From the NCBI GenBank assembly GCA_020723285.1, contig DYJE01000001.1, forward strand, positions 124,001 through 188,000: a stretch of 64,000 bases of DNA, read 5' to 3'. The notes beneath the pieces are model-generated. The model did not search any database. It was not told where the DNA came from and saw only the letters and a list, made by a program, of their open reading frames with translations. This stretch comes from Desulforapulum autotrophicum (GTDB lineage Bacteria > Desulfobacterota > Desulfobacteria > Desulfobacterales > Desulfolunaceae). Shown here piece by piece: positions 14,327 through 46,759 of this stretch (positions are counted from its first letter, which is position 1; each line of letters opens with the position of its first letter). A program made the translations under genes and the position numbers.

Positions 14327-15220
14327 CTATTTACGATTGAACACAACGGTTTCCGGTGATTCTTTTCCCATCTCTTCACCAAAATTCAGATATCCGCTGA
14401 CAGGAAGCACTGTTTCCTCCCGCTTCAGATACCTTTTTTTGTCCTTCAGGTCATAAACGAACGTTCCGTTTGAACTCTGGTCGATCAGTACAAATTTGCC
14501 CCATCGATATTCAATCCGGGCGTGTGTCCTGGAAACCCTTTTATTGGTCAGAACAAAATCATTGTGACTCTGCCTTCCGAAAGTCGCCACCGGGTGCGTC
14601 TGATCCACGAGTGTGATTCTTTCTTTGGATCGAAGCTCCAGAGAGTACATCATGGCCTTTTTGTCCATGTTTTTGTCGACGATCATGGTTTGGTCAAGCT
14701 GTTCCCAGATATATTCATAATAGCGAATTTCTTCAAACTTTCCTTTAACCACTTCCGTATCGACAAATTTCACATGGCTCTGGTCATGACTTGACAACTG
14801 ATTTATGGCATCTTCACTTAAAAGGATCTGTCTCTGTTTGGCAAGATTGACAAGCCGTGACGCCACATTGACCACATCACCGAAGATATCCCCACCATCA
14901 AAAATCACTTTTCCCCAGTTGATGCCCACATAGATATTGGGCGAACCGACTTCAGGAAAATCTTCAACAGGCATTCGGTCAAGGGCCTGATGCATGGCTT
15001 TACCTGCAGACACGGCACTTGAAACATCCCTGAATGTGCAAAGTACCTCATCCCCAATTTTTTTGATGACAAAACCGCCATGATCCGATGTGACATCAGA
15101 CAGTATCTTCAACCACGTTGATATCTGGGCCTGCGCTCTTTTATCACCAAGAATATCATAGAGTTGTGTACTTTTGGCAATATCTGCAAATAAAACAGAA
15201 GCCGATACAGTTTTGCGCAA
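14327..15220 (-). CDS. Class III nucleotide cyclase with C-terminal FHA domain
   Basis: About 297 residues, with no membrane segment. The first half is a class III adenylate/guanylate cyclase domain. 'VLFADIAKSTQ' and 'KIGDEVLCTF' hold the two metal-binding aspartates, and 'GDIFGDVVNVASRL' holds the transition-state Asn and Arg. The second half is a forkhead-associated domain ('ATFGRQSHNDFVL', 'VSRTHARIEY', 'SSNGTFV'), which binds phosphothreonine. Cyclase output may therefore depend on docking to a phosphorylated partner. The start is TTG 15220 with GAAGG upstream; no better ATG exists. It is the last of four same-strand genes that include another FHA protein and a kinase-like protein. The nucleotide made is not known. 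Confidence 0.85.
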   Translation of the reverse strand: MRKTVSASVLFADIAKSTQLYDILGDKRAQAQISTWLKILSDVTSDHGGFVIKKIGDEVLCTFRDVSSAVSAGKAMHQALDRMPVEDFPEVGSPNIYVGINWGKVIFDGGDIFGDVVNVASRLVNLAKQRQILLSEDAINQLSSHDQSHVKFVDTEVVKGKFEEIRYYEYIWEQLDQTMIVDKNMDKKAMMYSLELRSKERITLVDQTHPVATFGRQSHNDFVLTNKRVSRTHARIEYRWGKFVLIDQSSNGTFVYDLKDKKRYLKREETVLPVSGYLNFGEEMGKESPETVVFNRK

Positions 15221-15316
15221 TGTTTTTTACCTTCATGAAAGTAATGTCTGGAATTGCATGAAACAAATAGTATGCAAATGCCCATGGAGTGTCAAGGGGA
15301 ACCCTTGGCATCCAAT

Positions 15317-16363
15317 TTATTTATGTACAATAAAATCGGCATATATGGGCAAATGATCTGAATAACCAATCCCAAGGTGTTTTCCGCCGCCCTGCCTGCC
15401 TGTCTGCCATCGGTTTATGGTTTTTCCTGAAAATACGTAGCCTGACGTAAAACGCTTGAACGTATTTTCCATATATTCAACACATCGCCCATCATAAAGG
15501 GAAGCAGGAACCATTAAACTGTCCAGCGAGCTCACTTTGCTTTTATAAATATACGACCACCTTTGGCTTAACGGTAGCTCAAGCCAAAGATTATACAAAA
15601 GGTCCTGATTTTCATGTCTTTTCAGGATCATTTTATCAACAAGACGGCCAACTGAAACGGTCCTGAGAACATGGTTGATCCCAGTAAACCCTTGACTATC
15701 GTTCAATTCCGGTTCATTCACGATGGATCTGAATTCATCATATTCCGAATTGAAATCACCGATAACAAGGTAATCTGTCCCCCGTGGCAGAGTTTGTATA
15801 TCCTGTCTTAAAACATTAGCCGATTTAATCCTGTGGCTTTCCGGCCATTTTTTCGAAGTCCAGTGATTTACATAGACGATTAAAGATCTTCCGTGAACGT
15901 TTATGCCCGTTTTTAAGATACTCCGGATATGCCCATGATTCACTTCAAGGTCCTTTTTAAAGCTTACCGGATATTTTGATAACAGGGCACAACCCACGGA
16001 CTGCCCAGCGGTATCGCTCATCACTGAAAATGGATAGTCACAACCCCTTTTTTTCAACTCCATCACAAGCTGTAAAAGAGCCTTTGACGATTCGACTTCT
16101 TCCAATGCGACGATATCTGCCCTGATATCGGCTATGACCCGAGATAGCCGCCTGCATTTTAATTCAAACATTTCCCGGTTCCAGCCTGAACAGCTGTTGG
16201 GTACAAACTCAGGGTATTCCGTACCATGTGTTTCAAGATCGAATAAATTTTGAACGTTATAATTGGCCACTCTGAATGTTAATTGTGACGGACATGCAAG
16301 TCCCGGAGTAATGACAAAACATAGTATTGAACATAAAAATATTATCCCGCATCGTTTTCTCAT
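15317..16363 (-). CDS. Exported endonuclease/exonuclease/phosphatase family protein
   Basis: About 348 residues with an N-terminal signal peptide (MRKRCGIIFLCSILCFV..GLACPSQ; the Cys after GLA could be a lipobox). The mature part has the EEP fold: 'VANYNVQNLFD' (metal Asn), 'DIVALEEVES' (catalytic Glu), 'YVNHWTSK', 'LVIGDFNSEYDE' (Asp and Asn) and a C-terminal 'GYSDHLPIYADF' (Asp-His pair). All expected catalytic residues appear to be present. Substrates in this fold range from nucleic acids to phosphoinositides and sphingomyelin, so no specific function is claimed. I chose the ATG at 16363 because it begins the signal peptide; 16 further upstream residues are atypical. It is transcribed with FHA and kinase genes. 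Confidence 0.82.
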   Translation of the reverse strand: MRKRCGIIFLCSILCFVITPGLACPSQLTFRVANYNVQNLFDLETHGTEYPEFVPNSCSGWNREMFELKCRRLSRVIADIRADIVALEEVESSKALLQLVMELKKRGCDYPFSVMSDTAGQSVGCALLSKYPVSFKKDLEVNHGHIRSILKTGINVHGRSLIVYVNHWTSKKWPESHRIKSANVLRQDIQTLPRGTDYLVIGDFNSEYDEFRSIVNEPELNDSQGFTGINHVLRTVSVGRLVDKMILKRHENQDLLYNLWLELPLSQRWSYIYKSKVSSLDSLMVPASLYDGRCVEYMENTFKRFTSGYVFSGKTINRWQTGRQGGGKHLGIGYSDHLPIYADFIVHK

Positions 16364-16442
16364 TATTTCCCAGATCCAATAAAACGCGATCAAGAGGCGG
16401 CATTGGATCACAATCTAAATAATTGGCCTATGTACCGGCGAT

Positions 16443-17135
16443 CTACCGATAAAAAAACTGAAGCTCTATCGAGCCGATTCGTATCAGATCGAATTCCTCA
16501 AGAAGAACCGTGTGTTTAACCACCTTGTTATTGACGTGAACCTTACTGAAGCCACCACCGAAAGACAAGGTATACCCTTGATTGGTCTTTTTCAAAATGG
16601 CTGCGGTTTTTCCGACAAAAAGACCTTGTATGACAATATCACTGTCAGGGTCTTTTCCGATCTTTACTGTATTGCCTTTCAATTCAATTTTTCCATCTCC
16701 ACCTTCCACAAAGGCAAGCATGGCAACACCAGGATTCAGCTCCCCCGCACCTGCATTCCGTTTCAACAGATCCTTGTGGGAGACTGTATTCATGGCCATG
16801 GTGCGATCCATATCGTCTTCCTTATCACCCCCTGGAAGTTCATCTTTGGCAGGACTGAATACGAGGATGTGTTTCCCTATACCAATTTCATCTTTGTCCT
16901 GAAGAATGCATGTCGTCACCTCTTCCCCGTTGACATAAGATTTGTTTTTACTGTTCAGATCAGTAAGGAGAAAACCATCGTCGGTTAAATCAATTTTAGC
17001 GTGATGCCCTGAAACTGTAAGATTTGATATAACAATATCATTGTTCTCACGGCGTCCGATCCCTATGGATTTATCTTTTTTGAAATTGTAGATCTTTATC
17101 ACTTTATTATTAAATTTCAATGTCAACTTGGGCAT
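16443..17135 (-). CDS. Double FHA-domain protein
   Basis: About 230 residues. The first FHA domain (residues 1-95) shows the whole signature: 'IGIGRRENNDIVI', 'SGHHAKI', 'NSKNKSYVNGEEV'. A charged linker (about 96-140) contains 'DMDRTMAMNT', a Thr-containing stretch that could itself be phosphorylated. The second FHA-like domain (about 145-230) keeps 'VKIGKDPDSDIVI' but lacks the Ser-x-x-His part, so it may not bind phosphothreonine. Likely a soluble adaptor. The ATG at 17135 is preferred since AGGAAG precedes it. The gene follows the kinase-like gene by 70 bases, which suggests it reads the kinase's phosphorylation. Confidence 0.85.
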   Translation of the reverse strand: MPKLTLKFNNKVIKIYNFKKDKSIGIGRRENNDIVISNLTVSGHHAKIDLTDDGFLLTDLNSKNKSYVNGEEVTTCILQDKDEIGIGKHILVFSPAKDELPGGDKEDDMDRTMAMNTVSHKDLLKRNAGAGELNPGVAMLAFVEGGDGKIELKGNTVKIGKDPDSDIVIQGLFVGKTAAILKKTNQGYTLSFGGGFSKVHVNNKVVKHTVLLEEFDLIRIGSIELQFFYR

Positions 17136-17205
17136 GATTTCTTTTCTTCCTAACCCAGACAATCTGGAGGTATTAAGCAAAGTGACCTGTTCAAATCATC
17201 ATTAG

Positions 17206-19545
17206 TCACAACGTAATATCATGAGATGTGCCCTGATCCGAATCCTGGACACCTCCAGCAGATCCCGCGGTGTGATCCCCCCACACTTCAGTAAACATGG
17301 CTGTAAGAACGATATTAAACATCACTTCCATCATTGTGGCAACAGGAATTTCAGGGCCTGACGTCTTCAGATAGTCAAGGGCGGATTTTCTTTGTTCCAT
17401 CTGAATCTTCAATGGTTCAAACTCTTTAAAGAACTGAATGATTTCCTGTTTGTTGTTCAGCTTCTCCCCTGACCCTGATTCACATTTGCGTCGCATGGCG
17501 GCAATCTGCTCCACAGGAGCATTGAAAAGAAATTCCTTGTTCTGTTTACTTTTGAAAAGAGACTGATTGTTGATCTTAGCTGCAAGCCTGACAGAAAGGT
17601 TCTTCTTTTCATGTGAAAGCTGATGCAGGAATACCTGCCTGTCTTTTTCCCTCACGATAAGGTTGACCGTGTTCAAAACAGATTTGTTTTTCTGGATTTT
17701 TTCCTGGAATTCTTCTGTGGAATTTTTCCAGAACATACGGCTGACATATTCGACCGTTGAACGGACATTGTCATCCGTTTCCATGGGCCCCTCAAGCACC
17801 CGTTTGATATCCGGCAAAAGGGCAGCGGTTTTATCGAACAGATTCCCGCCGGTGATCACTTTGAATATCATGGCAACGGACGCATACCAGTCCTGAAGGT
17901 GGAGTATTCGTTTTAAATCCCCGAATATTTCAATGATCCACTGATTTGGGAAAAGATGGGAGGGTGTCGCATATTTGGGAGTTCCTCCCAACTGTGGCTG
18001 CATGATTTCAGCAATGTTTTCCGGGCTGTAATCCACTGCCGTTTCAACATCGATAAAGCCCATGGTAAACTGATCTGGAGAACGTAAAAAAACCGGATAT
18101 CTGTCCACATCGCCTGCAATGATCAGGTTGTCGGGTTTCAAGTCCCTCATGGACACCTGTTTTTTTCCAAGATATATCAGAAGGCCGATGATGTTTGTCA
18201 CAATACTCCCCATTTCGGCCTTAAAACGTGCAATGGTCGATTTGTAGATATACTCACGGACCACACGCCTGTAACTTTCGATGGACGTTTTGTTATCGAT
18301 CATGGATTCTCTGGACAGGGCGTTTAAGTCTTCAATAAAACTTTGTGAAAGATCGCCCTCGGATTCTATGCGCCCCCGTCCGGACAAATGAACGAGAAAC
18401 CAGTGTTTCATGGTATACGAAGGAAGAGGCGTGGTGACCCCGTACTGAAGAAGAAGCCTGCCTATTTCACGCTCGTATTCTTCATAGATGTTTCGCATCT
18501 CAAAGCCGATATGAGAGTTGTGATGACCGTATCGGCCTTCAAACTCATACGTATCCCAGATCATGTTCGGAAAACCGAGTATTTCACGGGGCATCGCGTT
18601 TTCCATATCGTGCATTTCGTTGACCACGGAACTGAGAAAATAATACCGGGCCAGATCCATAAAAAACACGAAAGAACGTCCGATTTTCAGATACTCCTGA
18701 AACTGTGAATTACTGTTCAGACGTTCGACATAATTTTTTTCCAGGTTCTGGGTTTCTGAATTTTTCATCCCCGGAGAAAGAAGACGGCCAAGGACCACGG
18801 AAACCCTCGGAATGATGCATTCCTTGGGGGCGATTTTCCGGGCAATCCGCATATCGGCTTTGATGCATGCCAGATATTCCTGAAAGTCCGTGATGGGTTC
18901 AGGGGGGACCTTCACAACGAGATGATCATCGTATATCACGTAATAACAAACACTTTTACTGACTCCGTCGTCTCCCAGAGGCCCGATGGTCAGTCTGCGC
19001 GAAACCCAGTCTCCCGAATGAAAAACGCTGAGTTCATAAACCCTGTTGGGCCAGACGTTGATGGTTGTCACAGGACTGTACTTGCCGGGTGAACTTTTCG
19101 ATGCCCCGATCTGGATTTTAAACAGTTTCAGAAAAAACTGAACAAGGATCTCCTTGTTGAAATCCCCCCCCTTGGATGCGTCAAACTCTTCACCCTCTGA
19201 GAAGCTTTCTTCGCCAGGTTCGGTTTTTTTCAAATCTCTGGGTTTGACTTCCTTTTTTCTTCGAAATCTCTTGGTTGACAGCCAGTCCACTGTTTTAAGA
19301 AGTGAAAGGATAATGATGATCCACATGGGGATGGCAAAGATCATGCCTTTGTTGATAGGAACTCCGGGGTAGTATCGTCCGATGTGAGAGATAAGATACG
19401 ATATGAACCGGTCCAGTGCCTCAGGTGAGTAACCTGAAAACATCCGTTCATAGTCCGGTGAAAAAAACGTTGCCGCTAAAACGCAGGTACACACCACAGC
19501 AATTTTTATGAACGCCTTTTTCAATTGTAGACCTCTTTGATTCAT
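17206..19545 (-). CDS. Membrane-anchored protein-kinase-like protein
   Basis: About 779 residues. Two hydrophobic segments near the N-terminus (about residues 9-28 and 66-87) are separated by a short external loop. The rest is cytoplasmic. A kinase catalytic-loop motif 'RDLKPDNLII' is at about residue 466, and 'GFIDVETAV' stands where DFG would be (about 493), so the metal Asp is kept within IDVE. Upstream 'HLVVKVPPEP' may provide the ATP-binding Lys. A long helical C-terminal region follows, with a final hydrophobic stretch. I read it as an atypical Ser/Thr kinase, possibly active. It heads the operon kinase-FHA-EEP-cyclase/FHA. An alternative start lies at 19581. Confidence 0.7.
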   Translation of the reverse strand: MNQRGLQLKKAFIKIAVVCTCVLAATFFSPDYERMFSGYSPEALDRFISYLISHIGRYYPGVPINKGMIFAIPMWIIIILSLLKTVDWLSTKRFRRKKEVKPRDLKKTEPGEESFSEGEEFDASKGGDFNKEILVQFFLKLFKIQIGASKSSPGKYSPVTTINVWPNRVYELSVFHSGDWVSRRLTIGPLGDDGVSKSVCYYVIYDDHLVVKVPPEPITDFQEYLACIKADMRIARKIAPKECIIPRVSVVLGRLLSPGMKNSETQNLEKNYVERLNSNSQFQEYLKIGRSFVFFMDLARYYFLSSVVNEMHDMENAMPREILGFPNMIWDTYEFEGRYGHHNSHIGFEMRNIYEEYEREIGRLLLQYGVTTPLPSYTMKHWFLVHLSGRGRIESEGDLSQSFIEDLNALSRESMIDNKTSIESYRRVVREYIYKSTIARFKAEMGSIVTNIIGLLIYLGKKQVSMRDLKPDNLIIAGDVDRYPVFLRSPDQFTMGFIDVETAVDYSPENIAEIMQPQLGGTPKYATPSHLFPNQWIIEIFGDLKRILHLQDWYASVAMIFKVITGGNLFDKTAALLPDIKRVLEGPMETDDNVRSTVEYVSRMFWKNSTEEFQEKIQKNKSVLNTVNLIVREKDRQVFLHQLSHEKKNLSVRLAAKINNQSLFKSKQNKEFLFNAPVEQIAAMRRKCESGSGEKLNNKQEIIQFFKEFEPLKIQMEQRKSALDYLKTSGPEIPVATMMEVMFNIVLTAMFTEVWGDHTAGSAGGVQDSDQGTSHDITL

Positions 19546-19764
19546 TAGTACGATGAAGATCTTAATTCCGCCGGCTGTCATGATTCAACATGAACTCCGG
19601 ATCGTTTCCCACCCTGAACAAACCACGGAAAACCTCAAGAAGATCCAGTTTACAGATCATTCATCGGTTTAAATTATAAACGGCGGATACCGTCATGGAC
19701 GGTTTTTTAAAACTTTAAATGAACCACGTCTTGGATGTCAAAAGAATTCTTCGGATGAGGAATA

Positions 19765-39761: not shown

Positions 39762-40367
39762 ATGCTGAAAAAAGGGATCTTCTTGTTTGCCGCCTGTATT
39801 GTTGTCATCATTGCCGGTTGCCAGACCATTGCTACCAAGCGTGTTGAAACCGATTCCGTAACGGATGTGGGTGATAAATGGAACGATACCGATTCACGAC
39901 TCGTTGCCGAAGAAATGATTCAAGACGCCCTTGAAAGACCTTGGCTGAAACAGTTCAAGCAAAGCAATAAACAAAAAAACCCCACGGTCATCATCGGCTC
40001 GGTGAAAAACAGAAGCCACGAACACATCAACGTCCAGACATTTGTCAGAGATCTTGAACGTGCCCTGTTAAACTCCGGAGAAGTTGAATTTGTCGCCGGG
40101 AAATCCGAACGCGATGAAATCAGAGACGAACGTTTCGACCAGGCCTCAAACTCCTCCGAAGATACGGCGAAATTCGACGGTGAAGAAGTCGGTGCGGATT
40201 TCATGCTCAAAGGCGAACTCAACAGCATCGTGAACCGCGACGGGGGAAAAGCTGTCAAATTCTACCAGATTAACCTCACACTCATCGATATTTCAAAAAA
40301 CAAAAAAGTTTGGATTGGCGAGAAAAAAATAAAAAAATTGATCAGCCAGAGCCGAATCAGATTTTAA
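39762..40367 (+). CDS. LpoB-like penicillin-binding-protein activator lipoprotein
   Basis: About 201 residues. Signal peptide with lipobox 'VVIIAGC' (Cys about 20), so it is lipidated. The folded part 'VIIGSVKNRSHEHINVQTFVRDLERALLNSG', then 'DFMLKGELNSIVN' and 'KAVKFYQINLTLIDISKNKKVWIGEKKIKK', matches LpoB/COG3417. In E. coli LpoB spans the periplasm from the outer membrane to switch on PBP1b. The start at 39762 begins the signal peptide; an AAAGGAG lies 11 bases upstream. The next gene is COG3014-like, a common companion of LpoB genes. It may instead serve another secretion or assembly system. Confidence 0.85.
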   Translation: MLKKGIFLFAACIVVIIAGCQTIATKRVETDSVTDVGDKWNDTDSRLVAEEMIQDALERPWLKQFKQSNKQKNPTVIIGSVKNRSHEHINVQTFVRDLERALLNSGEVEFVAGKSERDEIRDERFDQASNSSEDTAKFDGEEVGADFMLKGELNSIVNRDGGKAVKFYQINLTLIDISKNKKVWIGEKKIKKLISQSRIRF

Positions 40368-40402
40368 TAACCAGAAAATAGTTATTAATTTACCCGATAA
40401 GA

Positions 40403-40434
40403 TCTGGAAAACCTGAACATTCAGGTCTTCCAGA
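40403..40434 (+). repeat. Long hairpin between the LpoB- and COG3014-like genes
   Basis: TCTGGAAaACCTG pairs with CAGGTcTTCCAGA with one mismatch and a six-base loop. No T-run follows, so it may regulate relative expression of the two genes rather than end transcription. Confidence 0.5.
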
Positions 40435-40465
40435 CGATTCCGGCAAACAACCAGGTGGGGGAACC

Positions 40466-41770
40466 ATGAATAAATTCGCCGTAATCTTCTTAATTCTTTT
40501 TATTGTGTCGGGCTGCGCGCCTCAATTCAATTATTCAGCTTTGCAAAACTCCATGGCTTCAGGGAATTGTCCGGGATCCGTGGAATTAATGAAGAATTCC
40601 AAGCTTACTTACGGCGATAAAGCCCTGCTGCTTCATATGCTTGATTCAGGCATGATCCATTTTCAATGTGGAAATACCAAAGAAGCCACGGCTTTTTTTC
40701 AGGATGCTGACACTCTTGCCCAAGAACTCTGGACAAAAAGTCTGACAAAAGAAGCGGCTTCGTATGTGACCAACGATTTCATTCTTCCCTACCGGGGCGA
40801 GGATTTCGAAAGGGCCATGATCAGCCTGTTCTCCGCTTTTTCGTACATCAAAATGGGCGAATACGACGAAGCCATGGCAGACTGCCGTCGTCTTGACACC
40901 ATCCTGACGGAATACAACAGCAAGTACGAAAAAAAGAATGTTTACAAAGAAGACGCACTTGGACGATACCTCAGTGGCATTCTGTCCGAAGCAGACAAAG
41001 AGTACAGTGAGGCTTACATTTACTATTATGAAGCATTCAAAGCCTTTAAGAATTACAACCAGGCTTATGGAACTGTGACTCCCAAATACCTTTTTGAAGA
41101 TCTTAAGAGGGTTTCGGCACCGGCTGACCGTGAAAACGAATTGAAATCCATTATTTCAAATCCATCAAGGATGAAATACGTTGATCATCAAACCGCAAAA
41201 AAATTAGGAAAAATCATCCTGATTCATCTCAATGGGAAAGCCCCGATAAAAGTCGAAAACAAATTCAGCGTCGTCACAGCAACCGGCCCCATCAGCATCG
41301 CTTTTCCTGATTTTGTTTCTTCACCACCCTCCTGTCATTCAAGCCGGATGGTTTTAAAATCGAACCAGAATACCATTGTGGAAGAATCTGTTCTGTTTGA
41401 AGACATCAACGGCATTGCCCTCAAGGACCTGGCTGACAGAAAAGTGAGAATTACAGCTAAAGCCATCGCACGTGCCGTGGCCAAACAAGTGGTTGTCCAG
41501 GCCAGCGCCAACGAAATGGAAAAGCATTACGGCCCCATGGCAGGTCTTATGGCCAATATTGCAGGCAATGTTGCGGCAAGCGCCCTTGAAAAAGCGGATA
41601 CTCGATCCTGGAGAACACTGCCGGGTGAAATATACATCGCCCGTTCTTTCGTGCCAGCCGGCCAATATGAAGTATCAGTAGAAAATTGTCATGGCGGTCA
41701 GCACACGCTGGAACCTGTAACAGTCAAGGCCGGTGAAACCAAATTCATATTCTATGATACCATTTACTAA
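40466..41770 (+). CDS. COG3014-like lipoprotein
   Basis: 434 residues. Signal peptide ending 'LFIVSGCAPQ', a good lipobox. A TPR-like helical region (about 50-210; 'GEYDEAMADCRRLDTIL', 'EYSEAYIYYYEAFKA') is followed by a domain with 'IILIHLNGKAPIKVE' and 'AKAIARAVAKQVV', as in COG3014 proteins, which stand beside LpoB genes in many Gram-negatives. No catalytic residues are evident. AGGTGGGGG precedes the start. Probably a periplasm-facing outer-membrane lipoprotein of unknown role. Confidence 0.82.
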   Translation: MNKFAVIFLILFIVSGCAPQFNYSALQNSMASGNCPGSVELMKNSKLTYGDKALLLHMLDSGMIHFQCGNTKEATAFFQDADTLAQELWTKSLTKEAASYVTNDFILPYRGEDFERAMISLFSAFSYIKMGEYDEAMADCRRLDTILTEYNSKYEKKNVYKEDALGRYLSGILSEADKEYSEAYIYYYEAFKAFKNYNQAYGTVTPKYLFEDLKRVSAPADRENELKSIISNPSRMKYVDHQTAKKLGKIILIHLNGKAPIKVENKFSVVTATGPISIAFPDFVSSPPSCHSSRMVLKSNQNTIVEESVLFEDINGIALKDLADRKVRITAKAIARAVAKQVVVQASANEMEKHYGPMAGLMANIAGNVAASALEKADTRSWRTLPGEIYIARSFVPAGQYEVSVENCHGGQHTLEPVTVKAGETKFIFYDTIY

Positions 41771-41851
41771 TCACCATTTAACTTTGTAACAGTTTGAAAT
41801 AGTTCATTCTGTACATATGTGAAACTGAATAACATTCTGGAGCCATTATTT

Positions 41852-43012
41852 ATGAAAAAAATTTCATGCCTCATTGTTGCCGCAGCTTTCATTTTTTCTT
41901 CCTGTGTCAGCGCGCCTGTTGCAAAAAAAGAAACACGGTCTGTAAAAAATCAGCATGAACGAGCCAAATCCGCTTTCGATGAACTTGAAGAAAAACCATC
42001 GAATGATACACCTTCAGAAGAAATTCCAGTTAAAAAACCGGCCCCTCCGGTTACGACGTCAAAAAAACCACCCAAAGCTGTAGAAAAACCCGTTTCAGTT
42101 CCACCACCAGTGACCATCACCGAAGAAAAAATTGATTTTTCGTCCTCACGATATCTTACGGCAAAAGGTTACGGTTCATCGAAACCTGAATCCATCATTC
42201 ATGCCAAGGCAGAACTATCCAATATCTTTCAGGCAAAAATATCAAGTGACGTGACGTCTAAAGTAAAACAGGTGACAGACTCCATTAAAGGAAACTCATA
42301 CAGCAAATCCCTTGAATCTCAGATTCAGGTTGTCTCCGATATCGAACTTGAAGGTCTTCAGATCGGTGAAACACAGAAAGAACGAAGCGAATATGTAACT
42401 GTGGCCGCTCTTGACAAGACGAAAGCCAAAGAGAAATGGGAAAGAGACATCAACAAAGTCGATACGGAAATTGATGTTCTTCTCAATAAATCCAACTCTT
42501 CCCGCAGTAAAATCCAAAAACTCCTTCCTCTCAAAAAGGTTCTTGAACTTTGGGTTGTCAGGGAAGTGACCATCAGCCGTCTCCGGGTGATCGGTTACGC
42601 TTCGGAGTTCGAAAGAAAAGATCTCAAAAACATTTTACAGACCATATCCGACATTAAATCAAATATGCTGATCGATATTGATGTTTCCGGTTCCCTGGGC
42701 CAGGCAGTTCGAGATAAAGTCGCAGAAATTTTAACGGACAATGGATTCAAAATTGGTGATTTTGAATCCAAATCCGATGTGACCATATCCGGCTCAGTAA
42801 AAACCGACGAGGTAAAAAACAACAATCCAAGATTCAAATTTGCACGGGCCACTGTGTCATTGAACATCATCGATTCTCAGTCAAAAAGCCAGGTTGGTCA
42901 GGTTTCTGAAAATGACAGGGGCGCAGGACTGAATGTTGAAGAAGCGACTCACCAGTCCATCAAGAAGGTTTCCGAAAAAGTTTCCGAGAAACTGATTCAG
43001 TATTTCAATTGA
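41852..43012 (+). CDS. LPP20-like lipoprotein with Pro-rich linker
   Basis: About 386 residues. Lipobox 'AAFIFSSC'. A flexible Lys/Pro-rich stretch (about 50-100) leads to a LPP20-type domain ('YLTAKGYGSSKPESIIHAKAEL', about 110-140) with coiled 'KTKAKEKWERDINKVD'. A second domain after residue 240 ('LIDIDVSGSLGQAVRDKVAEIL', 'ARATVSLNIIDSQSKSQVGQ') looks like a lipoprotein beta-sandwich, similar in kind to FlgT/LPP20-associated domains. The ATG at 41852 starts the signal peptide. It is the last gene of the rightward lipoprotein set. Confidence 0.78.
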   Translation: MKKISCLIVAAAFIFSSCVSAPVAKKETRSVKNQHERAKSAFDELEEKPSNDTPSEEIPVKKPAPPVTTSKKPPKAVEKPVSVPPPVTITEEKIDFSSSRYLTAKGYGSSKPESIIHAKAELSNIFQAKISSDVTSKVKQVTDSIKGNSYSKSLESQIQVVSDIELEGLQIGETQKERSEYVTVAALDKTKAKEKWERDINKVDTEIDVLLNKSNSSRSKIQKLLPLKKVLELWVVREVTISRLRVIGYASEFERKDLKNILQTISDIKSNMLIDIDVSGSLGQAVRDKVAEILTDNGFKIGDFESKSDVTISGSVKTDEVKNNNPRFKFARATVSLNIIDSQSKSQVGQVSENDRGAGLNVEEATHQSIKKVSEKVSEKLIQYFN

Positions 43013-43030
43013 TCCTATCGTCTGGCAAAC

Positions 43031-43066
43031 AAAAAGCCCTCTTTAAAAAAGAGGGCTTTTTTATTT
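43031..43066. terminator. Bidirectional terminator between convergent lipoprotein sets
   Basis: AAAAAGCCCTC pairs with GAGGGCTTTTT; A-run on the left, TTTTTTATTTT on the right. It serves both the LPP20-like gene (43012) and the convergent CsgG-like gene (43096). Confidence 0.93.
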
Positions 43067-43095
43067 TATCAAAAATAATGTATCGCCGTTTTTTA

Positions 43096-43728
43096 TTATT
43101 TAACGTTACTCATTTTATTCGATTTTTTGACTATGGTTTTGATAAAATCACTGGCGGCCTTGTTGGCGTATTTCAGGACATCACAGGAGCATCCGTACAT
43201 AAAATCATCTTTAAGACCGGTGGATTTGGTTAATGAACCTGTCCAGATGATCTCTCCAGTTTCAATGTCAATGGCTTTGACAGCAAAACTGATGGACGTA
43301 CATTTTGATGGTTTATCGGGTTTTTCATGATTCTGGAACAGAGCGTTTTGAAATGTTCTCAATTTTCCGATGATCATGATATCGGAATTGGTGAGTTTGC
43401 CAATCTGCTTCCGCTGATTGGGGTCCACATCACCTTCGTACGAAAATTTCAACTCATCCAAAGCACTTTGGATGTTTCGTCTGTCAACGACTTTAAAACC
43501 GGCACCGATGAATTCTGTCTCGAATGCATCGGTCATGGCATCTACGGCATTATAACCAAGATCAGAAGAGCGCGCTTCCCTTTTATCCTGAAACGGTAAT
43601 ATGGCGTATGTACCTTTTGAAGTATTGAGCTCAGACTTTCCCACGGTGACATTTATCGAGCGTTCCAAAAGAAAACAACCCGATACAGTTATAATCATTA
43701 AAAAACATGCAATACCGTTACGTATCAT
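43096..43728 (-). CDS. CsgG-like lipoprotein
   Basis: About 210 residues. Signal peptide with lipobox 'IITVSGC'. The mature chain, 'YAILPFQDKREARSSDLGYNAVDAMTDAFETEFIGAGFKVVDRRNIQSAL', shows the CsgG/LpoB/TolB-like fold; further on are 'DIMIIGKLR' and 'KAIDIETGEIIWTGSL'. CsgG forms the curli secretion pore, but this short version lacks the pore-forming long hairpins as far as I can see, so an accessory role is more likely. The start at 43728 overlaps the upstream LPP20-like stop (ATGA). Last gene of the leftward set. Confidence 0.8.
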   Translation of the reverse strand: MIRNGIACFLMIITVSGCFLLERSINVTVGKSELNTSKGTYAILPFQDKREARSSDLGYNAVDAMTDAFETEFIGAGFKVVDRRNIQSALDELKFSYEGDVDPNQRKQIGKLTNSDIMIIGKLRTFQNALFQNHEKPDKPSKCTSISFAVKAIDIETGEIIWTGSLTKSTGLKDDFMYGCSCDVLKYANKAASDFIKTIVKKSNKMSNVK

Positions 43729-44114
43729 TCCGTCACCATCCAGACATAGATTTCTTCTGATTTGGGATCTTTCCATGTTTCTTTGATGACAGCCTTCACC
43801 ACCTGCCCCTCCACGGTTTGAAAACTGTAGCTTTCCACTGAGCTCCCGCCGCCTGCACCGGATTTGGTTCCAACAAGAGCGACGTTGTTAACTTTTACAC
43901 CGAGTTGCAGAGCAATTTCATCGATTGCGCGTTTAATGGCAAGGGAACGCTGTGCGTTCACACCATTAACATGCATACCGCAGACACCAATGCCTGCGAC
44001 TTTACCAGACACACTGGAATTATGAATCCAGGAAGGTTTGTTAATGGGTTGAACCGTTACACAGGAAACAAACAAAAGACAGAACAATACCATGAAATAA
44101 GCTTTGAATTTCAC
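43725..44114 (-). CDS. Short LPP20-like lipoprotein
   Basis: About 129 residues. Lipobox 'LLFVSC'. LPP20-type sequence 'VAGIGVCGMHVNGVNAQRSLAIKRAIDEIALQLGVKV' and 'EIYVWMV' at the end. I chose GTG 44114 because GGGGAGG stands 5 bases before it. The ORF ends at the window's neighbour by ATGA overlap. The Cys in GVCGM is unusual for the family. Function unknown; some LPP20 homologues (FlgP) help the flagellar motor. Confidence 0.8.
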   Translation of the reverse strand: MKFKAYFMVLFCLLFVSCVTVQPINKPSWIHNSSVSGKVAGIGVCGMHVNGVNAQRSLAIKRAIDEIALQLGVKVNNVALVGTKSGAGGGSSVESYSFQTVEGQVVKAVIKETWKDPKSEEIYVWMVTE

Positions 44115-44223
44115 TCGGACCTCCCCCACTTGAAACAACAAAAAAGACATTCAGGGTGGCGGGCACCACCCTGGCATGTCTTTCTTCAAGATTATAATAC
44201 GTGATCGACGTCAGGCACTAAAA

Positions 44224-44808
44224 TCAATCTGCAGCCGCATCGGCTTTTGCTTCACCAAATTCTTTTTCAATTTCTTTTTCAAGTTCTTCGTGACCCTTTT
44301 TGGCCTGGAATTTCTGCCACAGAGCCTGGTCGTTTTTCATGCTTGTGATGGCAGCAGATTTCATGGCATCGGCGACCTGGGTTACCACTTCAGGATTAAC
44401 CGCCACAAGAACATGAAGTTCGTTGTTTTTCTCATCAAGGAAAACTTTTTTGATCTGTGACCCTGAAAGATCGACTTTAGATACTTGTTTTGAAACGTTG
44501 GTGAACACTTTGTCAACGGTCTGAGCATCGCCGACGCCAGTGGTTTCAGTGAAATTTTTCACCATGTTTTTGACTCTTACATTCAAGGTACGGGAAATTT
44601 CATCACGTGCGTTGGCAGCTGCTTCAATGCGCGCCGTCTGCATTCCGGCAGGACCAACTTTTGCAGAACCGATACCTGAAATTCCACCTTCGGGAGGATT
44701 CAGAACCCATTCAGGAAGATTTGAAGAAGGTTTACTTGCAGTTTTGCATCCCGTCACAGCAACACAAGCAACTGCCAGTACTGCCATAATCACTATAATT
44801 TTTTTCAT
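44224..44808 (-). CDS. LPP20-like lipoprotein
   Basis: About 194 residues. Lipobox 'VACVAVTGC'. 'LPEWVLNPPEGGISGIGSAKVGPAGMQTARIEAAANARDEI' is the classic LPP20 opening (WV.NPP..GI.GIG.A), followed by 'LNVRVKNMVKNF' and a C-terminal acidic helix. The start at ATG 44808 is set by AAAGGAG 7 bases upstream and the signal peptide. It is separated from the next lipoprotein gene by about 110 bases. Likely periplasm-facing, with no catalytic residues. Confidence 0.87.
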   Translation of the reverse strand: MKKIIVIMAVLAVACVAVTGCKTASKPSSNLPEWVLNPPEGGISGIGSAKVGPAGMQTARIEAAANARDEISRTLNVRVKNMVKNFTETTGVGDAQTVDKVFTNVSKQVSKVDLSGSQIKKVFLDEKNNELHVLVAVNPEVVTQVADAMKSAAITSMKNDQALWQKFQAKKGHEELEKEIEKEFGEAKADAAAD

Positions 44809-44962
44809 ACCGTCTTTCTCCTTTTTATAGATTAATATTCTGCAAAGACACCTTTGCACAACCAACTCCAGCAACATGAACCATCTCAGTTTCTGCAGTA
44901 TCTTGACCTGTAAATAATGGCTTATTACTTTCGAAAATCCCAACAAAAGTCAACACGAAACA

Positions 44963-46759
44963 CTATCTGATTCGAACAATTTCAGGCTTTGTTTTCTTGA
45001 ACTGCGGCATGGCCATCCCTGAAACTGCGTTGATATATGTGGGATCACAAACCGTATACTTGGTTTCTTTATCCATAACATAATCTCCTGGAAGATTGTC
45101 ACTGAACCTTACACCTGTCGCTACGTGGCCCGGGTAGTCAAGCCCCACCACCTCAAGCCCAACGAGCTTCCTGACCAGATAGGCAAAAAAGAACGACCGG
45201 TCTTCACAATCCGAATAGGGATAAAATACAGTTTCTTCAGGTAGCATATATTTCTCGTGACCAAACTGCCCGTCATCCGTTTTATAACTGAATGCCTTCT
45301 GAACGAATCGCAGCAGATTGTTTACCGCTTCAACCTCTGTTTTGTTTTCCACCAGGGGTTTCAACGACTTAATGAGCGCATATTCAAGATCCGGTGACAT
45401 GAAGGAGTCGAAATAGACCTTGATGTTTGTCTGGGGGTAAAATTTGAAGAAGTCTACAATATTTTTATTGTAGAGTGTCTTGACCTCTACATTCTGTCTG
45501 TTCAGGTCAAAAGAAAGATTTTTTTCTTTCATCATCTTCGGAATGACAGGAGCAGACTGAAGATCAAAATCCATCGCTTTTTTTGCATCGGGATAACTCC
45601 CCTGATACGTGTAAAGTGTGCTGAATTTTGATGGCAGATCATCAAAAAACAAGGAATAATATTTTTTATTGTTCAGCGTTAAAAATGGAACGCTGTATAA
45701 ATTATTTTTTGAAGGCATCAGCAGATACACCTGGGTGTCGTTGTAACCAATCCGGGATTCGTATCCGGACTTGGCTGAAAGATACCATGTAAACAGATTG
45801 GCCATGTTTTTATCGCCACGATACAATTCAAGCCCTAACCTGTAGAGGATAAAATGGTATCCCCAATCGTTGAGACGAAGGTCTGTTTTATATTTTTTAG
45901 TCTGGGCAATAATCGAATCGTAATCAAGCTGGCTCATCTTGTCCCAAAACGCTGCAATAGCCTCTTTATTGATTGTGGAATTCCTGGAAGCCATGGGAAA
46001 ATCGTACTGACCATAAATGGATACGGTCGCCATGTAAAAATTTGTTGTTATGGCGGCCTTTCTTTTCTCCTGCTTCACAACCGGCGGCGATACCTTGGGC
46101 AACGGTTTTTCAATGACGGGCTCCACAGCTGGTTTTGACTTAACGTATGAGGATTCAGGTACGGTTTGAACAACAGGTTTGTCCGCTGTTTTTTTGTCAC
46201 GATCCGATGGAATATCTTGAACGTCTAAGGGTTTTGGCTCAGAGGGTTTAATGATCGGTTTTTCAGCAACAGGAACCATGGGCTTATCAACCGGCTTATG
46301 CAAGGATTTTACAGCCGGGGTTTCTTCGGGTTTGTCTTTCGGAGCTTGTTTTGTTTGATCGATCGGTTTTGAAACTGTGGGGACAGCCACGACTACCGGC
46401 TTTTCTGTGGTATCGATAGCCGGCTTTTCCACAGGTTTATATTGTGGAAGTTCAACCTTCTTAACCACTTTCATCTTCGGAGGTAATGGAGGCAAAGTTG
46501 GTTTGGGCGGTGCTACAGGCAAGGATAAGGGTTTGGGTTTGTCATCAATGACCAGCCCTTTATTGACATTGTATTCACGCCATTGATCTTTTAAAAAACC
46601 TATGAATTCTGCGTCTCTCGCATCTTTGTACGATTGGAAATCTTCTTTCTGGGAGCGCAGGTAATCTTCGTAATCCCCGGAATTACTGTCTCCGGCCATG
46701 GACTGAAACATCACAAGGGTAACAATAGAATATAGAAATACTCGAAGATAACGGTTCAT
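44963..46759 (-). CDS. Secreted transglutaminase-like protein with Pro/Lys-rich region
   Basis: About 598 residues. Signal peptide 'MNRYLRVFLYSIVTLVMFQSMA'. Residues about 65-240 are a low-complexity Pro/Lys/Val stretch of repeated 'EKPV', 'KPVD', 'KPII' units, TonB-like, probably spanning the periplasm or cell wall. The C-terminal domain has a transglutaminase-like catalytic set: Cys in 'YSDCEDRSFFFAYL', His in 'GHVATGVRF' and Asp in 'CDPTY', with the upstream 'YKTDDGQFGHEKYM' loop. These folds cleave or join peptides and often act on cell-wall or surface proteins. GGGGGA precedes the start. It opens the leftward lipoprotein set. Confidence 0.82.
   Translation of the reverse strand: MNRYLRVFLYSIVTLVMFQSMAGDSNSGDYEDYLRSQKEDFQSYKDARDAEFIGFLKDQWREYNVNKGLVIDDKPKPLSLPVAPPKPTLPPLPPKMKVVKKVELPQYKPVEKPAIDTTEKPVVVAVPTVSKPIDQTKQAPKDKPEETPAVKSLHKPVDKPMVPVAEKPIIKPSEPKPLDVQDIPSDRDKKTADKPVVQTVPESSYVKSKPAVEPVIEKPLPKVSPPVVKQEKRKAAITTNFYMATVSIYGQYDFPMASRNSTINKEAIAAFWDKMSQLDYDSIIAQTKKYKTDLRLNDWGYHFILYRLGLELYRGDKNMANLFTWYLSAKSGYESRIGYNDTQVYLLMPSKNNLYSVPFLTLNNKKYYSLFFDDLPSKFSTLYTYQGSYPDAKKAMDFDLQSAPVIPKMMKEKNLSFDLNRQNVEVKTLYNKNIVDFFKFYPQTNIKVYFDSFMSPDLEYALIKSLKPLVENKTEVEAVNNLLRFVQKAFSYKTDDGQFGHEKYMLPEETVFYPYSDCEDRSFFFAYLVRKLVGLEVVGLDYPGHVATGVRFSDNLPGDYVMDKETKYTVCDPTYINAVSGMAMPQFKKTKPEIVRIR

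Follow-up and report, generated by a model that had tools for sequence, protein, structure and literature searches.

A candidate outer-membrane-anchored peptidoglycan-remodelling module of lipoproteins and a transglutaminase-like enzyme in Desulforapulum autotrophicum and its relatives

We propose, at a probability of about one-half, that a 7-kb locus of Desulforapulum autotrophicum encodes an outer-membrane-anchored peptidoglycan-remodelling module, in which a lipoprotein scaffold docks soluble enzymes through an aromatic helix. Six lipoproteins with TPR, LPP20 and TolB-N/CsgG-like folds would form this scaffold at the inner face of the outer membrane, a location that we infer from their lipoboxes, the residue following the lipid Cys and their known relatives. 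A soluble periplasmic transglutaminase-like enzyme (TG) at this locus, together with a lytic transglycosylase of the MltC type that most TG-positive relatives encode, would be held at the scaffold, with the aromatic 11-residue repeat helix that both enzymes carry near the N-terminus as the probable dock. Judging by fold and gene neighbours, the transglycosylase would cleave glycan strands close to the outer membrane, where the C-H-D enzyme may break or form amide bonds of peptides. The LPP20, LpoB-like and COG3014-like families include studied Helicobacter pylori and Campylobacter jejuni proteins whose function, in the excerpted literature, is unsettled; their linkage to a transglycosylase and a TG through one helix would bring several orphan families together in a single, testable system of wall remodelling and yields predictions of their binding partners.

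All seven open reading frames (7/7) were confirmed at their coordinates in the window, the 64,000-nucleotide stretch of DNA analysed, and all encode exported proteins. The forward-strand set comprises the LpoB-like lipoprotein P0001 (39762..40367; PF13036 domain at residues 44-190), the TPR-containing lipoprotein P0002 (40466..41770), which had been labelled COG3014 before, and the lipoprotein P0003 (41852..43012), in which an LPP20-like domain (residues 96-188; 42137..42415) is followed by a helical hairpin and a C-terminal TolB-N/PelC/CsgG-like domain (residues 258-386; 42623..43009). On the reverse strand lie the CsgG/LpoB-domain lipoprotein P0004 (43096..43728), which overlaps the short LPP20-like lipoprotein P0005 (43725..44150) by 4 nt, the LPP20 lipoprotein P0006 (44224..44808) and the secreted TG, P0007 (44963..46759). 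The two sets converge on one terminator-like hairpin (43031..43061) common to both, with A and T tracts flanking it on both sides, as expected of the bidirectional terminator that the first-pass annotation had described. Its count of six lipoproteins among the exported proteins was borne out as well: read by eye, P0001-P0006 each carry a lipobox Cys, in no case followed by Asp, and P0007 has an ordinary signal peptide. Within the 5.44-Mb genome, both LpoB matches, the sole CsgG match and two of the five LPP20 matches fall in this locus, a clustering that is more than chance. A phage or defence island was rejected, with 0/7 proteins matching PHROGs (E up to 0.001) or PADLOC (E up to 0.01).

The family assignments are of uneven strength. 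P0001 is a clear LpoB-like protein in Pfam (PF13036, E 2.2e-43) and scores 108.1 bits against the NCBIfam equivalog TIGR02722, just below the cut-off of 110.55; phmmer gave no match for it in the PDB at 0.01. P0002 has TPR matches only, all under the Pfam cut-off. The COG3014-like family found short TPR-like matches only among PDB sequences (best E 0.035), and a search of a plasmid collection for annotated COG3014 relatives gave one partial, unannotated Aeromonas match. Of three lipoproteins that had been called LPP20-like, P0006 stands on a match above the Pfam cut-off (PF02169, E 4.4e-9) and P0003, below it at E 0.0012, is recovered by profile comparison (4kzs, 5.1e-6; 5ok8, 0.0029). P0005 falls below the cut-off at E 0.083 and is tied to P0006 only through relatives, because its orthologues match P0006 at E 1e-6 to 3e-12.

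P0004 matches CsgG above the Pfam cut-off (PF03783, E 2.8e-7), which upholds its CsgG-like label at the level of a domain. A CsgG-type P0004 that secretes amyloid or other subunits would fit that match, and other CsgG-domain proteins lie near a TG at one further locus (L109). Unlike CsgG itself, however, P0004 covers only positions 13-102 of the 210-position model, the remainder possibly being too diverged to detect; it also matches LpoB (1.6e-5), and among the related loci compared with the locus proteins a close relative of it occurs in a single genome (G001). We therefore regard such secretion as highly improbable, and the earlier link to the curli pore has no support beyond the partial domain match, on which curli/amyloid secretion was ruled out. 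No curli genes were recognised by eye in the window's list of ORFs of at least 130 aa.

Iterated family profiles drifted, merging the LPP20 types with each other and LpoB with CsgG, so labels derived from them cannot separate these families; ortholog counts were instead taken with the locus proteins as queries or with models of separate clusters. The locus is two modules, not one unit. Module A consists of P0001, P0002 and the LPP20/TolB-like P0003, and module B of the TG and two LPP20 lipoproteins, to which the CsgG-domain lipoprotein is added at this locus. In 25 of the 58 genomes strong LpoB-like and COG3014-like matches coincide, with a single genome departing from the pattern in each direction, and TG and LPP20 genes lie together in Desulfobacterota, Gammaproteobacteria, a Bacteroides and others, which sustains the idea of an envelope module recurring across several phyla. 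The two modules occur together, in varying gene order, in other Desulfobacterota, Calditrichota and further MAGs, and this recurrence speaks for the scaffold model. In the related genus Desulfoluna they are apart, by ∼113 kb in the complete genome G004 and ∼16 kb in G006 and on separate contigs in G002, G003, G005 and G007, an arrangement that speaks against it. B without nearby A was seen in Gammaproteobacteria and Bacteroides; one record of Bacteroides finegoldii has a form of module B, and tests in a culturable group therefore look possible. The seven genes thus recur, but not as the self-contained set first suggested, given the split in Desulfoluna, the restriction of P0004 and a transglycosylase partner that is missing from this genome.

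The first-pass annotation had named independently scattered orthologues as the pattern contrary to its proposal. Within the order and the phylum the orthologues are not scattered in this way, but at none of the 24 Cloacimonadota TG loci was an LPP20, LpoB, COG3014, MltC or FecR gene detected within 8 kb, on contigs of which some are short, and these loci weigh against the scaffold model. The three-unit aromatic repeat described below is present in 8 of the 24 Cloacimonadota TGs.

Module A might alternatively be a PBP1B regulator set of an LpoB and a TPR lipoprotein, with module B as an unrelated neighbour. The TPR lipoprotein LpoP was reported to activate PBP1B (PMC7267771, in the excerpt available), P0001 carries the PF13036 domain, the D. 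autotrophicum genome encodes a UB2H domain (G000:C91:46957-47211, E 4.6e-12) in a PBP-sized open frame of 797 aa, and the separation of A and B in Desulfoluna would suit this explanation. E. coli LpoB and P0001 are indeed alike in their PF13036 matches (E 3.5e-37 and 2.2e-43) and share 20% identity over 120 positions. LpoB, however, is characterized by a long Pro-rich disordered tether that spans from the outer membrane to PBP1B (PMC4632607, as excerpted), with 51 Pro-rich residues between lipid Cys and domain in E. coli, whereas in P0001 only 23 residues, none of them Pro, separate Cys20 from the domain; in four further LpoB-like members the domain begins at ORF residues 45-49. The gene neighbours also differ, being COG3014-like and LPP20 genes for P0001 and ycfL, thiK and nagZ for E. 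coli LpoB. Across the 58 genomes, UB2H over the cut-off was not associated with LpoB (16/26 with a strong LpoB match, 15/32 without; p 0.30), and A and B recur jointly in several lineages. The absence of the tether weakens the PBP1B-activator role first suggested for P0001, and we consider this explanation unlikely.

The scaffold model draws on the enzymes found beside the TG. A transglycosylase of the Mltc_N type lies within 8 kb at 10 of the 80 TG loci and beside the TG on the same contig in 8 of the 11 TG-positive genomes of the order, D. autotrophicum counted, and this proximity is a point in the model's favour. A module-type MltC lytic transglycosylase was not found in the D. autotrophicum genome, a point against it. 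The TG, the MltC-type transglycosylase and FecR-domain neighbour proteins have in common a helix built of an aromatic 11-residue repeat (residues 30-63 of P0007; 46571..46672, reverse strand). Three units of this repeat were found in 49/80 TGs, 8/10 MltC-type proteins and 3/6 FecR proteins, compared with 5/771 other ORFs and 0/963 shuffled sequences. Two units are a weak marker, occurring in 28/771 other ORFs, 36/963 shuffled sequences and 3/6 members of one LPP20-like group. Comparison of profiles gave 93.5% between TG and MltC (E 2.4e-7) and 80.6% between TG and FecR, while 18 of 19 controls stayed at or below 0.8% and one reached 18.1%. A search of the D. autotrophicum genome with the repeat recovered the TG at 5e-14; a second match (E 0.147), to a regulator-like ORF, was dropped.

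The G001 transglycosylase and E. coli MltC are 33% identical across 322 positions, the SLT domain among them. E. coli MltC carries a lipobox but lacks the aromatic repeat. Of the ten module MltC-type proteins none shows a lipobox and eight have the three-unit repeat, which is absent from all six lipid-anchored MltC proteins. By sequence, the aromatic helix thus seems to replace the lipid anchor of these enzymes. By pattern, the MltC of one locus (L091) lacks both the lipobox and the repeat, and it sits poorly with the scaffold model. The helix might be a non-lipid outer-membrane docking tag through which soluble enzymes attach to a scaffold of lipoproteins, with the TG joining outer-membrane lipoproteins covalently to peptidoglycan by isopeptide bonds as a counterpart of Braun lipoprotein attachment, a combination that we think improbable.

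P0007 had no match in Pfam or NCBIfam, although among 11 aligned TG members four match PF04473 and one matches PF01841 weakly. A search of PDB sequences for TG relatives gave three chance-level matches (best E 0.95). The C-H-D triad (C518, H545 and D572 in P0007) is invariant in 64/64 TGs and lies in the core at residues 444-598 (44966..45430, reverse strand), whose predicted structure aligned by VIA-align to LapG, TglA, TG2 and PNGase at Z 8-11. A transglutaminase-like fold with a C-H-D triad is supported by these results. In Foldseek the top match had an E of 0.025, with none at 0.001 or better. Between helix and core, a Pro/Lys-rich spacer (∼residues 119-230; 46070..46405, reverse strand), predicted at low confidence and probably disordered, varies in length among relatives and may let the catalytic domain reach the wall.

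LapG gave the best structural matches (Z 9.7-11.1 over 136-143 residues) and was the top Foldseek match, which would suit a periplasmic cysteine protease of the LapG type, trimming either an adhesin on the surface or an exported protein, with the lipoproteins as a platform or as the exit route of the substrate. Like P0007, the LapG/BTLCP proteases are exported and have a transglutaminase-like fold with C-H-D, and HvyA, of the related BTLCP family, was reported to control capsulation in Caulobacter in dependence on its catalytic triad (PMC4241560, from partial text). The likeness is one of predicted fold, with no significant sequence match, and P0007 differs in having an N-terminal helix, a lengthy spacer and, preceding the core, a further domain of ∼200 residues. 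TglA (Z 9.7) and TG2 (∼9) come near to the LapG scores, inspection by eye of 45 neighbour clusters, most of them unannotated, revealed no adhesin or exporter that recurs, and it is a lytic transglycosylase that does recur beside the TG. Such a protease is rather unlikely in our judgement; the fold equally suits a protease with a non-wall substrate, an observation that tells against the scaffold model.

None of the open-access papers examined describes this combination of lipoproteins, TG and lytic transglycosylase, and searches of an open-access collection gave no paper on COG3014, on DUF6175, on "LPP20 family lipoprotein", on a transglutaminase with an LPP20 lipoprotein and a lytic transglycosylase, or on hendecads together with peptidoglycan and outer membrane. 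Searches of the same literature returned only PMC11394524 for operons of LPP20 and LpoB lipoproteins and only PMC4241560 for transglutaminase-like enzymes with a peptidoglycan or outer-membrane lipoprotein crosslink.

The best fold match of P0003 is HP1454 of H. pylori (4kzs), and FlgT also matched. This would agree with lipoproteins that, in the manner of FlgP and FlgT, form a ring or disk for motility or for another machine spanning the envelope, and the excerpted text of PMC11756786 reports interactions of HP1454 and HP1456 with FlgP and FapH by co-IP and two-hybrid. The same excerpts describe a wild-type motor after hp1456 deletion, however, no flagellar genes were recognised by eye in the window's list of ORFs of at least 130 aa, and the TG and transglycosylase would have no role there other than clearing the wall, all of which makes a ring doubtful.

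By analogy, the closest known systems to the proposed peptidoglycan-remodelling module appear to be HP1454/HP1456/HP1457/HP0018 of H. pylori and Cj0089-Cj0091 of C. jejuni, for which operon organization or synteny was reported (PMC11756786, PMC11394524, PMC3100323, each as excerpted). Neither a transglutaminase nor a lytic transglycosylase is mentioned for the operons in these excerpts, and an inner-membrane location was reported for Cj0089 (PMC3100323, as excerpted), which is at odds with the scaffold model. HP0018, a TPR lipoprotein, is syntenic with an LpoB homologue in several Helicobacter; its deletion produced less helical, hypervesiculating cells, and it co-precipitated MltD and AmiA as potential partners, a tie given by co-IP and modelling only (PMC11394524, in the available part). 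These HP0018 findings and the fold match of P0003 to HP1454 count in favour of the scaffold model. P0002 may be likened to HP0018/Cj0089 by its sub-cut-off TPR matches and gene context. HP1454, with an LPP20 and a further domain, shares an operon with the LPP20 lipoprotein HP1456 (PMC11756786, as excerpted), and the LpoB homologue HP1457/Cj0091 together with the TPR lipoprotein HP0018/Cj0089 parallels module A.

All seven open reading frames of the first-pass annotation were found where it had placed them: on the forward strand, the LpoB-like P0001 (39762-40367), the COG3014-like TPR lipoprotein P0002 (40466-41770) and P0003 (41852-43012), and on the reverse strand, the CsgG-domain P0004 (43096-43728), the LPP20-like P0005 (43725-44150), the LPP20 protein P0006 (44224-44808) and the transglutaminase-like enzyme P0007 (TG; 44963-46759). 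The shared terminator and the six lipoproteins that it described were also recovered, as a symmetric hairpin at 43031-43061 terminates both gene sets and a lipobox is seen by eye in six of the seven proteins. Under the +2 rule, Asp after the lipobox Cys bears on lipoprotein sorting. The residue at this position, read by eye, is Q, A, V, F, V or K and in none of the six Asp, so these lipoproteins are likely to be sorted to the outer membrane. These 7 kb contain both LpoB matches, the sole CsgG match and two of the five LPP20 matches of the 5.44-Mb genome. A terminator-like hairpin (44151-44174) separates P0006 from P0005, and P0005-P0004 may therefore be expressed at a lower level than TG and P0006. 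Further ORFs clustered at 14327-19581 of the window resemble, by eye only, an FHA-domain cyclase, an FHA protein and a kinase-like protein.

Gene neighborhoods group the set into module A (LpoB-COG3014-P0003) and module B (TG-LPP20-LPP20), and the set recurs. Among 58 genomes of the order, including that of the window, the COG3014-like protein and a strong LpoB match (E below 1e-17) were each found in 26 and TG in 11. LpoB and COG3014 occur together in 25, with one exception in each direction (Fisher 4e-14, or 1e-11 once the window's family enters as a single count). In one exception (G029), an alignment-based search showed a weak COG3014 match adjoining LpoB, and in the other (G040), the 3.2-kb contig that carries COG3014 stops at that point. 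COG3014 was found in every one of the 11 TG genomes (p 3e-5; 4/4, p 0.016, with the family counted once). The two modules are neighbors in the window and G001, where they converge, and in G026, where they share a strand in a different order. They are ∼113 kb apart in the complete genome G004, ∼16 kb apart in G006 and on separate contigs in G002, G003, G005, G007, G040 and G053. Across a sample of 297 genomes of the phylum, TG was found in 7, with four long matches (the window genome G000, G026, G100 and G135) and three weak ones, and COG3014 in 47, including all four long-match genomes and none of the weak ones. G135 has an LpoB-COG3014-P0003-LPP20-TG run on one strand, its TG cut by the contig end. 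G100 carries P0003-TG-LPP20-LPP20-FecR on a single contig, and its LpoB-COG3014 pair lies at the end of a different one.

Related loci link the set to a lytic transglycosylase. The G001 locus is arranged like the window with an MltC-type gene added between the P0005 and P0004 counterparts (SLT 3.3e-27; Mltc_N 4.6e-4, slightly below the cut-off). An Mltc_N match lies on the contig of TG in 8 of the 11 TG genomes (G001-G005, G026, G040 and G053) and on a different contig in G007; the Mltc_N search gave none in G006 or the window genome. Since a search of the latter with the G001 protein returned only two partial SLT-region matches (best, 5.7e-7), either the window holds a reduced version of the module or the transglycosylase copy is absent from this 97%-complete assembly.

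When GTDB genomes were scanned with the TG alignment, at least 585 TGs were confirmed among at least 595 pattern matches. The 80 best-scoring loci, which are not a random sample, were analyzed within 8 kb, and since many contigs are short, the neighbor counts are lower bounds. Among these best 80 of at least 585, an LPP20 gene was detected near TG in 48: 14 of 15 under Desulfobacterota and "Delta/Proteobacteria" titles, 20 of 22 in Gammaproteobacteria and 14 of 19 in other groups. The first-pass annotation had proposed co-occurrence as one check on a self-contained module; recurrence of A and B genes held in Desulfobacterota, but no LPP20 was detected within 8 kb at any of the 24 Cloacimonadota TG loci, where some contigs are short. 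The same 80 loci gave MltC-type neighbors in 10, FecR-domain proteins in 6, LpoB in 5 and COG3014 in 4, the last by a coverage rule that omits the L113 copy and a partial L156 copy. Both modules occur in Calditrichota (L113, L165 and, in part, L156) and in L109 and L111. The near-identical module proteins of L109 and L111 carry two titles, Manganitrophaceae and Flavobacteriales, which suggests a binning error in one of these MAGs. L139, titled Nanoarchaeota, has TG and LPP20-like genes, and L156 has a large LPP20+DUF4384 protein nearby. A Bacteroides finegoldii record reads DUF6175-LPP20-LPP20-x-TG, its TG with a three-unit repeat by eye. The Bacteroides DUF6175 protein (L180:5153-6418), immediately upstream of two LPP20 genes, resembles by eye a fusion of LPP20-like and TolB-like parts; no paper on DUF6175 was found among the open-access papers searched.

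TG, the module's MltC and FecR-domain neighbors share a helix in which [FYW]xx[FYW] pairs repeat with an 11-residue period. A run of three such units was present in 49 of the 80 best TGs of at least 585, 8 of 10 MltC-type and 3 of 6 FecR proteins. Of 771 other ORFs, 5 contain such a run, in each case the same WWAYN stretch of a single unrelated family. The LPP20, P0003, LpoB, COG3014 and three additional named groups (96 proteins) gave no case, and neither did 963 shuffled proteins. Matches to only two units discriminate poorly (28 of 771 other ORFs; 36 of 963 shuffled proteins). Profile comparison, with at most 60 of the 80 TGs, gave 93.5% for TG and MltC (E 2.4e-7), 80.6% for TG and FecR (1.3e-5) and 64.3% for MltC and FecR (6.4e-5); of 19 TG controls, 18 stayed at ≤0.8% and one LPP20-like group reached 18.1%. 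By helix angles, the repeat residues form a single narrow aromatic face, and in the TG model they lie within a confident helix (residues 27-58). In the FecR-domain proteins beside TG (L098, L102, L148 and related loci), the repeat lies in a C-terminal stretch, in 3 of 6 by pattern.

Among the proteins compared, this helix excludes a lipid anchor. Of six lipid-anchored MltC proteins (five relatives and E. coli), five match the lipobox pattern, the remaining one reading YGC, and none has the repeat. The module's MltC-type proteins have a lipobox in none of 10 and at least two units in 9, L091 having none. TG has a lipobox pattern in 2 of the best 80 of at least 585. The simplest reading of these sequences is that the helix would substitute for the lipid anchor. 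The module pattern recurs in the MltC proteins of L174, a second copy distant from TG in G026, of L177 and of L176, from G032, a genome with LpoB, COG3014 and an LPP20-type protein and no TG match; L178 is the L095 gene again, and L175 has neither lipobox nor repeat. Cloacimonadota TGs have three units in 8 of 24 and two in 23 of 24, with no partner detected nearby (best 80 of at least 585).

Structure prediction for TG (64 sequences; mean pLDDT, 84) gave the helix, a Pro/Lys-rich spacer of low confidence (residues about 119-230) and a folded region (235-598) in which C518, H545 and D572 are invariant in 64/64. Its C-terminal core matches the periplasmic cysteine protease LapG (Z 9.7-11.1), TglA (9.7) and animal transglutaminases (about 9), and with LapG as the top Foldseek match (E 0.025), the main rival explanation is a LapG-like protease acting on a surface protein. 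We give a probability of about one-half to a wall-remodeling scaffold, in which TG and MltC would dock through their helices to the lipoproteins, peptidoglycan would be the substrate and A and B would act jointly.

E. coli LpoB has 51 Pro-rich residues between lipid and domain, whereas P0001 has 23 without Pro, and P0001 is therefore unlikely to extend to an inner-membrane PBP as the E. coli protein does. The P0003 model (8 sequences; pLDDT, 77.7) comprises an LPP20 domain, a helical hairpin and a PelC/CsgG/TolB-N/LptE-fold domain (Z 8.6-12.1), with Helicobacter pylori HP1454 as the top Foldseek match (E 3.9e-6). HP1454 and HP1456 are reported from a common operon (PMC11756786), HP1457 is termed an LpoB homologue and Cj0091 orthologue, and HP0018 is described as a TPR lipoprotein homologous to Cj0089; in many enterohepatic Helicobacter its gene shows synteny with hp1457 (PMC11394524). 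Cj0089-Cj0091 form a single operon; Cj0091 localizes to the outer membrane, whereas Cj0089 was placed in the inner membrane (PMC3100323), a point against a scaffold confined to the outer membrane. Deletion of HP0018 reduced helicity and caused hypervesiculation, with MltD and AmiA as potential partners by co-IP (PMC11394524), and LpoP is described as a TPR lipoprotein able to activate PBP1B (PMC7267771).
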